Shown here piece after piece: positions 55,594 to 60,923 of a stretch of DNA of 64,000 nucleotides. Location of the stretch: positions 124,001 through 188,000 of the forward strand of contig NZ_JAKJXE010000005.1 of NCBI RefSeq assembly GCF_021728295.1, given 5' to 3'. The DNA comes from Pseudomonas petrae. GTDB lineage: Bacteria; Pseudomonadota; Gammaproteobacteria; Pseudomonadales; Pseudomonadaceae. Both the position numbers and the translations under genes were made by a program. The notes under the pieces were generated by a model, which saw nothing but the letters and a program-made list of their open reading frames with translations, was not told the DNA's origin and did no database searches. The number at the start of each line of letters is the position of its first letter. The stretch's first letter is position 1.

Positions 55594-57238
55594 CGCCAGC
55601 GTTGTCATACGCCCACGCACGCCCTGGGAGGCCATCGATCTGGGCGTTCTCCTGGCGCAACGGCACCGCGCCTTACTAATGACCAGCTGGGCCATCGTCA
55701 CCTTGCCCATCTTCGCGCTGCTGACCCTGCTGCTGTGGGATTACCCGTCGGTGGCAGTTCTCGTGTTCTGGTGGCTGAAGCCGGCGTACGAACGGCTGCC
55801 GCTGCTGATTCTGTCGCAGGCGCTGTTCGGCTCGGCACCTTCGCTCAAGCAGGCGCTGAAAAGCTTTCCGTCCGCTTTAAAACCGCAGTTGATAGCAACC
55901 CTGACCTGGCGGCGTCTGAGCCTCAGCCGCAGCTACTATCAGCCGGTGCAGCAACTCGAAGGACTCGACGGGTTGTCGCGTGCGCAGCGGATTGCCGTGC
56001 TTGGCCAGAAGGAATCCCGGGCGGCGCGTCTGCTGACGGCGCTGGGCAGCACACTTGAAATGACCTTCTGGATCGGACTGATGGTGCTGTTCTACGCCAT
56101 GATTCCGCCGCAGATCGAAGCCGACTGGTCATGGCGCAGCCTGCTGGACATCGAGGGTGAGTGGAACTGGCTGGAGCATCTGACCAACGGGTTTTATGCG
56201 CTGGTTTTGGTCGTGTGGGGGCCGGTTTATGTGTCCTGCGGGTTTGCCCTGTACCTCAATCGCCGAACCGCATTGGAGGCGTGGGACATCGAACTGCGTT
56301 TCCGCAAGCTGCGTCAGCGTGTTCTGGGCAGCGCACTGTCGTTGTTACTGGGCGGGATCCTCGCGCTGACGTTGTTGCCTTCTTCGGTCATGGCAGAGTC
56401 GGCGGCAAACCAGTCAATGACAGACCAGTCAATGCCGGACGAAATCCCCAGCGAGTCGGGCAATAGCTGCCCACTGCCGCCGCTGGACAACCCGCAGACT
56501 GACGAAGACGTTGCACCGCCCGACTCGCCACGCCTGCTTAATCAGCCGCTGACCAGCCAGGCGTCACAGAACGCCATCCATGCCGTGCTTGAACAACCGC
56601 CGTTCAAGAATCCCAAACCAGTGTCCGGGTGGCGCATCGCCGAGCCCGCTTACGATGCCAAGCATGACGCCAAGCATGATGCCAACTCAGCCGAGACACC
56701 CAACTGGCTGGCGCGACTGGTCGTCGGCGCGCTCAACGTGGGCAAAACCCTGTCGGCTGTTTTCGGGGCACTGTTATGGACGCTCCTCGGCCTCACGGTC
56801 GCGTGGGTGATCTGGCGGTATCGGGCCTGGTTCGCCACCTTCGTAGGTAAAAGCCCACGCAAGGCACCTGCACCACAAGACATCCCTCACCAACTCTTTG
56901 GCTTACAAGTCCGTGCTGAAAGTCTGCCGGCGGATGTCGCGGATGCAGCGGAGAGGCTCTGGCGGCAGTCACCCCGCGAGGCTTTGAGCCTGCTTTACCG
57001 CGCACTGCTCAGCCGCCTGTTGACCGATTACCAGCTGCCGCTGAAAAGCGCGGACACCGAGGGCCAGATACTGGCGCGCATCGCCGAGCTCAAGCAGCCA
57101 TCCCTCGATGACTTCAGCCATGAGCTGACGCGCCACTGGCAGAATCTCGCCTACGGGCATCAGGTGCCGCCGGATCAAGCACGACAGACGCTGTGCTCAG
57201 GCTGGCGGAAGTTGTTCGCGCAGGGAGCAGGCGCATGA
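55580..57238 (+). CDS. DUF4129-domain membrane protein
   Basis: 552 residues. TM segments lie near 35-70, 175-195, 215-235 and 255-275 with a large Pro/Gln/Asp-rich periplasmic stretch (about 285-380), a TM near 405-425 and a C-terminal DUF4129 domain (ADAAERLWRQSPREALSLLYRALLSRL). ATG 55580 lies 14 bases inside the previous gene; a TTG at 55562 is an alternative. Family function is unknown; some relatives carry transglutaminase-like domains. Confidence 0.8.
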   Translation: MRLIDASVVIRPRTPWEAIDLGVLLAQRHRALLMTSWAIVTLPIFALLTLLLWDYPSVAVLVFWWLKPAYERLPLLILSQALFGSAPSLKQALKSFPSALKPQLIATLTWRRLSLSRSYYQPVQQLEGLDGLSRAQRIAVLGQKESRAARLLTALGSTLEMTFWIGLMVLFYAMIPPQIEADWSWRSLLDIEGEWNWLEHLTNGFYALVLVVWGPVYVSCGFALYLNRRTALEAWDIELRFRKLRQRVLGSALSLLLGGILALTLLPSSVMAESAANQSMTDQSMPDEIPSESGNSCPLPPLDNPQTDEDVAPPDSPRLLNQPLTSQASQNAIHAVLEQPPFKNPKPVSGWRIAEPAYDAKHDAKHDANSAETPNWLARLVVGALNVGKTLSAVFGALLWTLLGLTVAWVIWRYRAWFATFVGKSPRKAPAPQDIPHQLFGLQVRAESLPADVADAAERLWRQSPREALSLLYRALLSRLLTDYQLPLKSADTEGQILARIAELKQPSLDDFSHELTRHWQNLAYGHQVPPDQARQTLCSGWRKLFAQGAGA

Positions 57239-58461
57239 GCCGGCGCTGGATCATCGGGCTGGTCACCGCGCTGATGCTGGCAAGCATCGTCATCGCCAGT
57301 GTGCCTGTGCTGAAGCGGCTCGAACGTTATCAGGAAACCGTCGACCAGGGCCCTTCTCCCGAGGCGCTGGCCAACCCCTACCTCGCCGCTCAGACGTTCC
57401 TGCGTCAGCGAAACATTCAGGTGAAGACGGTCGAAACGCTCGCCACTCTCCCCGACATCCAAGACCAGCCGCAAACGCTCATGCTGCTGGATTTCCGCGA
57501 GAAGATGACGCCGTCCGAGGTCAAGCGCTTGCTGGCCTGGACCCAGTCAGGCGGCCGCCTTCTGTTTGTTGCCGAACAGCTGTGGGACCAGGCCAAGGGA
57601 AGCAGCGGCGACCTGTTGCTGGATCAATTGCAGATTCATCAATTCCTCACCCAGGATCTGCAAGAGCAGGACCGCGAACGGCAGCGCGAACAACTCAAGC
57701 CGGTCATCCCGCTGAGCACGCCGGACATTCAAGGCCCCGAAACGCCGTGGCCCGAGTTGACCCGGCTGTTCGTGCAAAACGAAAACGCCCCGGCCTACAT
57801 GAGCTTCGACCCGGCCTTCCATCTGGATGACCCCGAGGATCATGCACAGTCATGGGCCAACAGCGCTGACGCCACGCACCTGCTGCAAATGGTGTACGGC
57901 TCCGGATTGATCACCGTCGTCACAGACGCCGACCTCTGGAAAACCCACACCATCGGCGAATACGATAATGCCTGGCTGCTCTGGTACCTGAGCCAGGACA
58001 GCACCGTCACGATGGTGCTGCGCACTGAACACGACAACCTGTTCGGGCTGCTCTGGAAATACTTTCCCCAGGCGCTGCTCGCCCTGACGCTGTGCCTCAT
58101 TGCAACGCTGTGGCATGCAGGCATGCGCCATGGCCCGATGCTGCCGATTCTGTCGCGCGGCCGCCGTCAGCTCAGCGAACACCTGCGCGCGAGCGCCGAC
58201 TTCATGCTCCGCCGGGAAGGCCAGCACGCCGCGTTGCGTGCCCTGCAGCAAGACATTCTGCGCCGCGCCCGGCAGCGGCATCCCGGGTTTGAAACCCTGA
58301 CCGTCACCGAACAATGGCAGACGCTGGCGCGCATGACGCGTCAGTCCACCAGCAGCATCGGCCAGGCACTGCGGCCCCGACCGGAGCAACGCCTGTCCAG
58401 CAGCGAATTCACCCGTCAGGTTGCGTACCTGCAAACCATCAGGAATGCATTGAATGTGTAG
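57235..58461 (+). CDS. DUF4350-domain membrane protein
   Basis: 408 residues: an N-terminal TM (WIIGLVTALMLASIVIASVPVL), a periplasmic DUF4350 domain (about 40-260, with SPEALANPYLAAQTFLRQRN and GGRLLFVAEQLWD resembling a GATase-like fold), a second TM near 276-294 (LLALTLCLIATLW) and a cytoplasmic helical tail with MLRREGQHAALRALQQDILRRARQ. The start overlaps the DUF4129 stop (ATGA). The next gene in related operons would be moxR, but here a toxin-antitoxin pair intervenes. Confidence 0.8.
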   Translation: MSRRWIIGLVTALMLASIVIASVPVLKRLERYQETVDQGPSPEALANPYLAAQTFLRQRNIQVKTVETLATLPDIQDQPQTLMLLDFREKMTPSEVKRLLAWTQSGGRLLFVAEQLWDQAKGSSGDLLLDQLQIHQFLTQDLQEQDRERQREQLKPVIPLSTPDIQGPETPWPELTRLFVQNENAPAYMSFDPAFHLDDPEDHAQSWANSADATHLLQMVYGSGLITVVTDADLWKTHTIGEYDNAWLLWYLSQDSTVTMVLRTEHDNLFGLLWKYFPQALLALTLCLIATLWHAGMRHGPMLPILSRGRRQLSEHLRASADFMLRREGQHAALRALQQDILRRARQRHPGFETLTVTEQWQTLARMTRQSTSSIGQALRPRPEQRLSSSEFTRQVAYLQTIRNALNV

Positions 58462-58509
58462 GCGAACAACCGCAGTCATGTCGCTGCGCTGGCTACTGGC
58501 AATGCCGTA

Positions 58510-59247
58510 TCAGTCTTCGGCTGCGCCTAAGACTTTGTTGACGTAACTCTCAACGAACCAATCGGGCAAATCCTCGAACCGGAATTCGAAATCGGTGCCG
58601 TCGGTGACTTCTGCAAGCAAGACAGCCTCGGCTTCCGAGTTATCGAAAATGTAAGCCCGATTGGTCGCCTCAACTGCAGCAGGAAGCAAATCAAGCGAGC
58701 CCTTGTAGCGCTTGCGAATTTTGTCCTCGGGTACATTGTGACCACCTTCTGCAACTCGGTTGGCTACCCTCTGGATGTTGATGTCCACAGAGTCAGTGGA
58801 AACGTAATAGAGGTAAGTGCGGTAGCCCCTGCGCTGTGCCATTTCCAGAAACTCGACCTTGTCAGGGCTGGACATCACCGTTTCGAAGGTAAAATTTTCG
58901 CCAAGTTCCAGTAACTGATGCCGAATGAAATCGGCAATTGCCGAGGCGAAATAGGAATCCATTGGTACGCACGTGAACTCAACGCGGTTTCCATTTAGCC
59001 CAATCAATTTCGCCTGGGCCTGCCTGTTGAATTTGACGAGCAGCGAATGCTCATCGATAAATGAATGCAATGCTTGGGGTGTGGTGTGAATTTTGTACGT
59101 CGAGAGGTCCAGAAAACCGGTTTCGTTGACCTCGTGTTCGATGTCATCGGCGTTGACGTAGATACCAATGAGATTCGCCGGGACAAAGCCCTTCATCGTG
59201 GATTTACCGCTGCCATTAGGCCCCGCCCAGCAGCGCGCCCTAGGCAC
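58510..59247 (-). CDS. Zeta-toxin-like ATP/GTP kinase
   Basis: 245 residues with a P-loop near the N-terminus (RCWAGPNGSGKST, residues about 5-17), a conserved IYVNADDIE (zeta-type Asp/Asp), and NFTFETVMSSPDKVEFLEMAQRRGY, the strong zeta-toxin/UDP-GlcNAc-kinase-like signature, then TDSVDINIQRVANRVAEGGHNVPEDKIRKRY with Arg residues for ATP binding. Start GTG 59247 overlaps the antitoxin's stop by 8 bases. Zeta toxins phosphorylate UDP-amino sugars or NAD-related substrates; the substrate here is unknown. GC is visibly lower than in the flanking operon. Confidence 0.8.
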   Translation of the reverse strand: MPRARCWAGPNGSGKSTMKGFVPANLIGIYVNADDIEHEVNETGFLDLSTYKIHTTPQALHSFIDEHSLLVKFNRQAQAKLIGLNGNRVEFTCVPMDSYFASAIADFIRHQLLELGENFTFETVMSSPDKVEFLEMAQRRGYRTYLYYVSTDSVDINIQRVANRVAEGGHNVPEDKIRKRYKGSLDLLPAAVEATNRAYIFDNSEAEAVLLAEVTDGTDFEFRFEDLPDWFVESYVNKVLGAAED

Positions 59248-59503
59248 TGGCTTTCAGCCGGCGAACCTTGTGCACTTTGCCAAGCTGGACTTTAGTACGA
59301 GGCTTGGCCGGGGCGATTACCCGCACCGAGCCGTCAGCTTTGGCTTCAACCATATTGGTGCCCTGGATGCGGTACACAGTCAGCCCCGACGACAGCGCTC
59401 GGTAGTATGCCGAGACGGTCGCGCTTGCAGCCAATACAGGGATTTTGTCCTCAAGGTTCAGCATGTCCTCTTCAGACAATTTTTTTGTTTCGACCTTAGC
59501 CAT
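59240..59503 (-). CDS. Putative antitoxin of the zeta-toxin pair
   Basis: 87 residues from ATG 59503 (MAKVETKKLSEED). Helical N-terminus (EEDMLNLEDKIPVLAASATVSAYYRALS), then short strands (LTVYRIQGTNMVEAKADGSVRVI), and a basic Lys/Arg-rich tail (KPRTKVQLGKVHKVRRLKA). It precedes and overlaps the toxin, the normal antitoxin position. An in-frame ATG at 59608 exists, but AGAACATC just before 59503 and family length favour the later start. Antitoxin identity is inferred from position. Confidence 0.65.
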   Translation of the reverse strand: MAKVETKKLSEEDMLNLEDKIPVLAASATVSAYYRALSSGLTVYRIQGTNMVEAKADGSVRVIAPAKPRTKVQLGKVHKVRRLKASA

Positions 59504-59801
59504 GATGTTCTCCGGCAGTTCAGTTTCATTCGGCAAGCAGGTTCGTCGTGATTCTAGCCCAAGTGGGGCCGCCAATCTCGATTGTGTCGTTTCACAGGAG
59601 CCGAGCATGTCGCTTCAGGGTTCTGGACATACACTCAAGATCGGACAAACATGGCTTCTACTCCTTTCGATCAAACCTCAACGCAGCGTCGCCTTTGACC
59701 GTTGAGGCTCGATACATTCCAAGGTGCGGCGAGCGAGGGAGCTTGTTCACCGGCGCCCCGGCAAAATTCCAGCAAAGTCAAATTAGGTAAGCGCTCGATT
59801 T
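59504..59801. other. Divergent region between the antitoxin gene and moxR
   Basis: 298 bases holding the antitoxin/toxin promoter and presumably a moxR promoter. No obvious repeats flank the insertion. Stretches 59610-59700 contain short frames on both strands that lack ribosome-binding sites. Confidence 0.4.
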
Positions 59802-60923
59802 ATGGACGATAAAACGGACTTGAAAGTTAGCAAGGCGCCAGAGCATGTGAGCGATCAACCGACCGAGCCAAGCCACGCGGCCAATCACCTTCCCACGCCC
59901 GAACCCATAGCCGTGGACCACAAGCACACCGAGCCGGCCACCGCTTCGGGCAGCAATCCGGCGCAGCAGCGACAGCGTGCGATTCATCTGGCGCAGGCGG
60001 TGCGGCACGAGTTGCAAAAAGCGGTCATCGGCCAGGACGCGGTGATCGATGATGTGCTGACCGCACTGATCGGCGGTGGCCATGTCTTGCTCGAAGGCGT
60101 GCCCGGGCTGGGCAAGACGCTGCTAGTGCGGGCGCTGGCTCGGTGTTTCGGCGGCGAGTTCGCGCGCATTCAGTTCACCCCTGACCTGATGCCCAGCGAT
60201 GTGACCGGCCATGCCGTTTACGACATGCAGAGCGAGCAGTTCAAGCTGCGCAAAGGACCGCTGTTTACCCATCTGCTGCTTGCGGACGAGATCAACCGCG
60301 CACCGGCCAAGACCCAGGCCGCGCTGCTTGAGGCGATGCAGGAACGTCAGGTCACGCTGGAGGGCCGAGCGCTGCCGGTGCCGCAACCGTTCATGGTGCT
60401 CGCGACGCAGAACCCGATCGAGCAGGAAGGCACTTATCCGCTGCCCGAAGCCGAGCTCGACCGCTTCATGCTCAAGGTGCGTATGGATTATCCCCAGGCC
60501 GATCAGGAGCTGGAGATGGTCCGCCAGGTCACGCGTTCGACGCGCTCCGACATGCTCGACATCCAGCCCCTGCGCACCTTGATGCAGGCAAAAGATGTGC
60601 TGGCGCTGCAACGCATCGCCAGCGATCTGCCGGTGGATGAACAGGTGCTCGATTACGCCGTGCGGCTGGCCCGCGCGACTCGCACGTGGCCGGGCCTGAC
60701 GCTGGGTGCCGGGCCGCGGGCATCCATCGCGCTGATTCGGGGAGCACGCGCCCGTGCGCTGTTGCGAGGCGGTGAGTTCGTCGTACCCGACGACGTCAAA
60801 GGCTGCGCGCTGGCAGTGCTTCGGCACAGGGTGAGACTTGCGCCGGAGCTGGACATCGAGGGGTTGTCGGTGGATCAAGTGCTCAAGCAATTGCTGGATC
60901 AGGTGGCGGCGCCGCGCCGATGA
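59802..60923 (+). CDS. MoxR-family AAA+ ATPase
   Basis: 373 residues. A 50-residue unstructured Pro/His/Thr-rich leader precedes the AAA+ domain: Walker A LLEGVPGLGKTLLVRALA near 96-113, Walker B HLLLADEINRAPAKTQAALLEAMQERQVT near 158-186, sensor 1 LATQNPIEQEGTYPLPEAELDRFM and an Arg finger downstream. MoxR ATPases chaperone or activate VWA/DUF58 partners. The long acidic leader is unusual; most MoxR proteins start near the QAVRHELQKAVIGQD region, so an internal start cannot be excluded. Confidence 0.88.
   Translation: MDDKTDLKVSKAPEHVSDQPTEPSHAANHLPTPEPIAVDHKHTEPATASGSNPAQQRQRAIHLAQAVRHELQKAVIGQDAVIDDVLTALIGGGHVLLEGVPGLGKTLLVRALARCFGGEFARIQFTPDLMPSDVTGHAVYDMQSEQFKLRKGPLFTHLLLADEINRAPAKTQAALLEAMQERQVTLEGRALPVPQPFMVLATQNPIEQEGTYPLPEAELDRFMLKVRMDYPQADQELEMVRQVTRSTRSDMLDIQPLRTLMQAKDVLALQRIASDLPVDEQVLDYAVRLARATRTWPGLTLGAGPRASIALIRGARARALLRGGEFVVPDDVKGCALAVLRHRVRLAPELDIEGLSVDQVLKQLLDQVAAPRR

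Follow-up and report, generated by a model that had tools for sequence, protein, structure and literature searches.

Two sets of described systems bear on the locus analysed here. On the side of the proteins these are epsilon/zeta, PezAT and AvrRxo1-ORF1/ORF2; AvrRxo1 is an injected effector with a partner, its gene order and partner being unlike those at our locus. On the side of the DNA, the SE elements SE-6283 and SE-6945, as far as the sections of their reports considered here describe them, share with the element traced below a four-gene order of catalytic, non-catalytic, large catalytic and TetR-like protein and the use of fixed target sites (PMC10214605, PMC9345347). The same sections list imperfect inverted repeats at the ends, strand-biased circle formation and a 6-bp footprint as SE traits, and SE-6283 is said there to bring its own copy of bcp, the gene it targets (PMC10214605, PMC9345347); the first of these accounts states, in the part considered, that the ends could not be identified for the majority of SE core genes on Pseudomonas chromosomes (PMC10214605). 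GInt islands, in the portion of their description used here, have in common with our element three integrase-like genes plus a small one and an AT-rich 3' end, as well as imperfect direct repeats of 10-17 nt and addiction modules as cargo (PMC5385486).

In the window, by which we mean the whole 64,000-nucleotide stretch of Pseudomonas petrae DNA that was analysed, a putative zeta-type kinase gene and a small partner gene interrupt an operon. We consider it probable that this pair is addiction-type cargo in a decayed SE-type element which recurrently targets the overlap of DUF4350 and moxR, and whose surviving right end now starts moxR.

The interrupted junction

Pfam identifies the six operon genes as RDD, SpoIIM, DUF4129, DUF4350, MoxR-type AAA_3 and DUF58, the names already given to them by the original prediction, which had also held that the two blocks of this operon normally adjoin. 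They do: moxR directly follows DUF4350 in 83 of 89 relatives examined (26 of 29 and 57 of 60), and the two genes usually overlap by ATGA where they are contiguous. The DUF4350 search behind this survey matched 117 of 149 genus genomes, our own included, and the junction was surveyed in 89 of the 116 matching relatives (among 148 other genus genomes), with G143 and G093 read later; the six exceptions are G068, G018, G026, G128, G042 and G039. The minus-strand pair stands where it had been placed, both reading frames being open and overlapping by eight bases: the putative antitoxin (59240-59503, minus strand, 87 residues, ATG start) precedes the kinase (58510-59247, minus strand, 245 residues, GTG start). 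Its visibly lower GC is likewise borne out, at 0.518 for the kinase gene and 0.553 for the small gene against 0.618-0.647 for the six operon genes, and extends to third codon positions (0.618 and 0.648 versus 0.724-0.790).

The interruption is wider than the pair. In a BLAST alignment of the window with the empty site of G020, the match ends at 58451 and restarts at 59848, so that the interruption covers more than 58510-59503 and spans approximately 58452-59847 (GC of 58453-59847, 0.528); the DUF4350 gene runs from 57193 to 58461 on the plus strand, its conserved part ending near 58451. As had been anticipated, empty sites exist in close relatives, G020 and G385; G347 is not counted, as the stretch examined there did not show one. 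The DUF4350 gene of G020 is 94% identical to that of the window, and neither kinase nor partner was found in the G020 genome; the pair occurs in none of the 89 other DUF4350/moxR junctions read and so is not ancestral there. With regard to the suggested target duplication, there is an imperfect direct repeat at both ends of the interruption, with a left copy at 58454-58472 on the plus strand, ATGTGTAGGCGAACAACCG, and a right copy at the start of moxR, at 59845-59861 on the same strand, ATGTGAGCGATCAACCG; for these stretches, which were chosen after inspection, 2 of 2000 shuffles were equal. A search of the own genome for further copies of 59504-59847 returned none (best other E 0.94).

The element and its right end

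What lies to the right of the pair changes the picture of a bare toxin-antitoxin insertion. When the insert was compared by BLAST with the relatives' loci, a single match fell outside the pair. It aligns 59774-59815 with sequence that precedes moxR in G018 and rules out such an insertion as the whole story; nothing in the relatives' loci compared matched the roughly 260 bases that separate the small gene from the right end. The right end itself (59774-59846, plus strand) is an AT-rich stretch with AGGTAAG at 59785-59791 and an ATG at 59802, followed by 15 codons in the frame of moxR. Read from this ATG, moxR (59802-60923, plus strand) encodes 373 residues, its native first codon, here GTG, lying at 59847.

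This leader is widespread. A search of 398 genus genomes with 59740-59880 gave 30 matches at E <= 0.01, our own genome included; of the 29 others, 18 are the leader segment, 13 before moxR and five before other genes, and in the other 11 just a short stretch is matched, at the start of moxR or elsewhere. With two further copies found by reading the junctions of G042 and G128, and with the partial match in G257 left out, the leader precedes moxR in 15 relatives and other genes in five, making 21 copies together with that of the window. Each of the 21 has a ribosome-binding-site-like stretch and an ATG, and from the ATG exactly 15 codons lead, without a change of frame, to the native first codon of the gene that follows. 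In 12 copies this native codon is ATG, and in nine it is something else: GTG (the window and G128), GAG, GCG, CTG (twice), TTG, ACG and GCT. The mean entropy of the leader by codon position is 0.71, 0.43 and 0.92, the third position being the most variable. Because the native ATG is lost in nine copies and third positions vary most, these data fit, though they do not prove, a leader that starts translation in frame. The right end is likely to be a portable gene start, whose ribosome-binding-site-like stretch, ATG and conserved 15-residue leader, with the consensus MEDKTHVTVSKAPEP, are fused in frame to the target gene and would keep that gene expressed while rewriting its N-terminus. The leader is fused to MoxR in 16 genomes seen, the window included, and to other proteins at other sites. 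The genes behind it at L334, L337, L340, L342 and L347 were read by eye as reductase-like, two YchJ-like, a short ORF and TrpD-like; the element therefore has several target sites.

Six leader loci gave no Rfam match at E <= 0.1, and a promoter of sigma-70-like type was not seen in 58380-60000. The module, lying on the minus strand, is not read into moxR. A literature search of titles and abstract openings found no work on such an in-frame leader at an element end. The original prediction had allowed that the pair may uncouple moxR-DUF58 from the genes upstream; this is too simple, as the conserved segment supplies moxR with a ribosome-binding-site-like stretch and an in-frame start. At one junction, in G039, a Fic-family gene (L140:239-1450; Pfam E 6.4e-13) stands between DUF4350 and moxR, and the leader match is absent.

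Might the segment be a host regulatory leader of moxR rather than the end of an element? Its position before moxR in 13 of the 18 opened genomes with a match would suit that reading, but five copies precede other genes with the same 15 codons, the segment is missing from relatives with a contiguous junction, and recombinase genes or fragments lie upstream of it in G093, G042, G236, G383, G325, G143, G169, G230 and G071, which makes a host leader highly improbable.

The element from which the right end presumably derives is complete in G093. There the four genes of the recombinase set follow DUF4350, the first of them some 150 bases after its end, and a further 24 kb or so leads to the leader and moxR. 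The first gene encodes an integrase with the R-H-R-H-Y motif and the second a protein of about 559 residues that is without the histidines; the third codes for a long integrase in which the motif is present, and the product of the fourth has 142 residues. The same four genes follow DUF4350 in G068, where moxR was not met within about 38 kb. In G042, G236, G383, G325 and G143, fragments of the first gene (in G236 also of the third) are left towards DUF4350 and the leader is left towards moxR; in G018, G182, G211, G212 and G128 the leader is present and no recombinase was matched. Judged by DUF4350 (96.2%), G182 is the closest relative; it holds a different filling of 1.95 kb with a minus-strand ORF of 604 codons. 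At another site, in G230, some 15 kb separate the recombinases from a downstream leader, whose codons continue into a gene that looked YchJ-like by eye, and homologues of the second gene occur on P. aeruginosa plasmids in a set of integrase, hypothetical protein, integrase and TetR-family protein.

The intA, tfp, intB, srap order of SE elements, with the catalytic motif in the first and third proteins only, is found in G068, G093 and G230. In GInt islands the first two genes are catalytic and the third lacks part of the motif, whereas here it is the second that lacks the histidines and the third that has the motif. It is the third gene, not the second, that lacks a catalytic residue in the part of the GInt description considered, which also does not describe an in-frame leader (PMC5385486). 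The name GInt was dropped, as motif pattern and order fit SE better. From SE elements, as portrayed in the sections considered, the present element differs in that its right end brings just a start and 15 codons instead of a whole gene, and in that its inverted repeats are not clear (PMC10214605, PMC9345347): in six pairs, between 24 and 475 of 500 shuffles were as good.

The claim that a two-gene module separates the operon blocks holds for the separation and fails for a lone module, the end of the insert recurring without the pair in 20 genomes. What ties the pair to the element is position, because the window has no recombinase genes or traces and lacks TGATCTGG, the canonical left end. Alternatively, the element could have opened the junction first and the pair inserted there later and alone, with the site being all they share. 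Such a history would suit the lack of the pair in all 20 island stretches opened, the other cargo carried by G018 and G182, and the 260 unmatched bases before the right end. Against it, an element remnant with the same flanks and without the pair was not found, and the one repeat observed brackets the interruption as a whole and not the pair; we regard a separate arrival as unlikely and favor the pair having come as cargo of the element.

A zeta-like kinase and its constant partner

The kinase passes the Pfam cut-off for Zeta_toxin (PF06414; E 3.5e-9, 36.8 bits against a cut-off of 22.3), and the family is matched by 17 of 17 aligned homologues at E <= 0.01. Across these 17, K15, D34, E122, R160, R164 and R180 are invariant, as is the Walker A motif GPNGSGKST; we take the Walker A motif, D34 and E122 to be the counterparts of the zeta catalytic residues. 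In zeta, T118 and R120 are substrate residues. The structure model (pLDDT 91.5) has a zeta-like predicted fold: the best Foldseek rows in the PDB are zeta, PezT and AvrRxo1 (1gvn_B, E 1.3e-6; 2p5t_B, E 2.8e-6), and VIA-align gives Z 13.1-13.2 for zeta, tied with 13.0 for a bacterial polynucleotide kinase, while AvrRxo1 aligns at Z 13.2 over 185 residues with 3.4 A. The likeness to epsilon/zeta and PezAT thus lies in the Zeta_toxin cut-off, the best Foldseek rows 1gvn and 2p5t and a partner gene upstream. The kinase differs in carrying some 50 additional residues ahead of the FTFE motif, and the partner differs in that no relation to epsilon or PezA was detected and no PDB fold matched it below E 0.09. 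The extra residues are a feature of the subfamily, in which 87-98 residues separate NxD from FTFE in 56 of 58 readable kinases (80 taken, 22 left unread); the spacing is 39-43 residues in 13 readable ordinary zeta kinases (16 taken, three left unread). Elsewhere in the same genome, outside the window, G000:C31:136222-136761 (L309) matches Zeta_toxin more strongly (E 3.6e-39), and a PF06414 search of 249 genomes returned mostly rows read by eye as FtsY-like proteins.

The small protein had been suspected to belong to a family without a name, and the libraries searched agree. Neither Pfam nor PADLOC matched it at E <= 1, and its sole NCBIfam (E 0.076) and PHROGs (E 0.24) rows are at chance level, as are all Pfam rows of 16 aligned partner proteins (best E 0.0084). 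PDB sequences gave nothing below E 0.06 and PDB folds nothing below E 0.09, the latter with a model of middling confidence (pLDDT 77) that predicts a helix at 11-38 and three strands; neither these searches nor Pfam connect the partner with epsilon or PezA. The small protein is a member of an antitoxin-like family without a relative found in Pfam, NCBIfam or the PDB.

The pairing is constant. Among the 73 kinase loci of the 398 genus genomes, 61 have the partner just upstream, and the other 12 are 11 distant kinases (30-35% identity) and one 76-residue fragment, so that the partner stands directly upstream at 61 of 61 subfamily loci, several of them with broken kinase genes. Second kinase pieces were left out of the locus counts, and weak partner rows (G121, G344, G204, G161) and second pieces of split matches out of the pairing counts. 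The partner lacks a kinase at 32 of 93 loci, and no full-length subfamily kinase without partner was found in the 398 genomes. Of these 32 loci, 31 were opened (G275 left out) and in most of them the partner gene stands alone. Four of these loci, L207-L210 (G150, G097, G111, G212), have a distant partner relative about 200 bases ahead of an S-type pyocin-like gene, for which Pfam names Pyocin_S and Cytotoxic domains at L209.

Beyond the genus, the best 80 of 281 kinase relatives in named genomes, many of them metagenome assemblies, have the partner upstream in 74 cases with a Pseudomonas-only profile and in all 80 after iteration; the best E was 0.0069 among 2673 other ORFs and 0.077 among 400 shuffles. 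These 80 belong to Pseudomonadota, Chlamydiae, Verrucomicrobia, Acidobacteria, cyanobacteria, Bacteroidetes and Fibrobacterota. Plasmid relatives with partner come from Azotobacter, Comamonas, Acinetobacter and the archaeon Methanomethylovorans, the partner match being weak in the A. baumannii plasmid record (E 0.013). In a class-wide sample of 274 genomes, the one full-length match among 29 further loci, G472, is also the one with a partner by the Pseudomonas profile. Phage records gave four partial kinase matches, none above 80% of the kinase, and viral contigs six kinase loci, one of them close (54%).

Ordinary zeta kinases have other small genes as partners, ParD-like in three of seven tested. 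A comparison of the partner family with the small genes beside them gave profile probabilities of 93.8% and 59%, the comparison being circular in that the first set had been picked by a profile of the same kind. A less biased count comes from the ORFs of 28 ordinary zeta loci, where all five that match the partner below E 0.001 run over the end of the kinase gene. A weak resemblance to the helix and hairpin of the partner (E 1.5e-5 to 0.6) is seen in small genes at L081-L086, L088, L090 and L315, each of which overlaps an ordinary zeta kinase at its 3' end.

Two coupled genes kept together, the mark of type II toxin-antitoxin systems, are what was found at 61 of 61 loci and in all of the best 80 of 281, and by analogy the pair is most likely a type II addiction module. 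The tie between zeta and polynucleotide kinase in fold scores would also accommodate a housekeeping kinase of metabolism or nucleic acids with a small regulatory subunit and no toxin; this is doubtful, given a scattered distribution (kinases in 73 of 398 genomes, and in 12 of these just distant or fragmentary ones), the occurrence on plasmids and islands, and kinases that are often broken while the partner is kept.

A proposed history and its meaning

Our analysis suggests a scenario in which an SE-type integrative element, encoding an integrase, an integrase-fold protein, a large integrase and a small TetR-like protein, entered the DUF4350/moxR overlap. In the window the recombinase genes would then have been lost, leaving the pair and the right end of the element, whose ribosome-binding-site-like stretch, ATG and 15 codons would maintain a start for moxR despite the broken overlap with DUF4350. 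In the proposed addiction module, the first gene, translationally coupled to the second, would yield the 87-residue protein that binds and blocks the kinase, the extra 50 or so kinase residues being the likeliest docking place to judge from their co-occurrence with the partner. The kinase would have a small metabolite as its substrate for phosphorylation, a nucleotide sugar if the analogy to zeta holds; left free by its partner, it would arrest growth.

For the zeta kinases, these findings describe a subfamily that spans many bacterial phyla, with an archaeal plasmid relative, and has a constant, un-named partner; knowing what this pair does would give a function to many hypothetical genes. 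They also locate both ends of an SE-type element at one recurrent target. In the leader, they point to a simple way by which such an element may keep its target gene alive.
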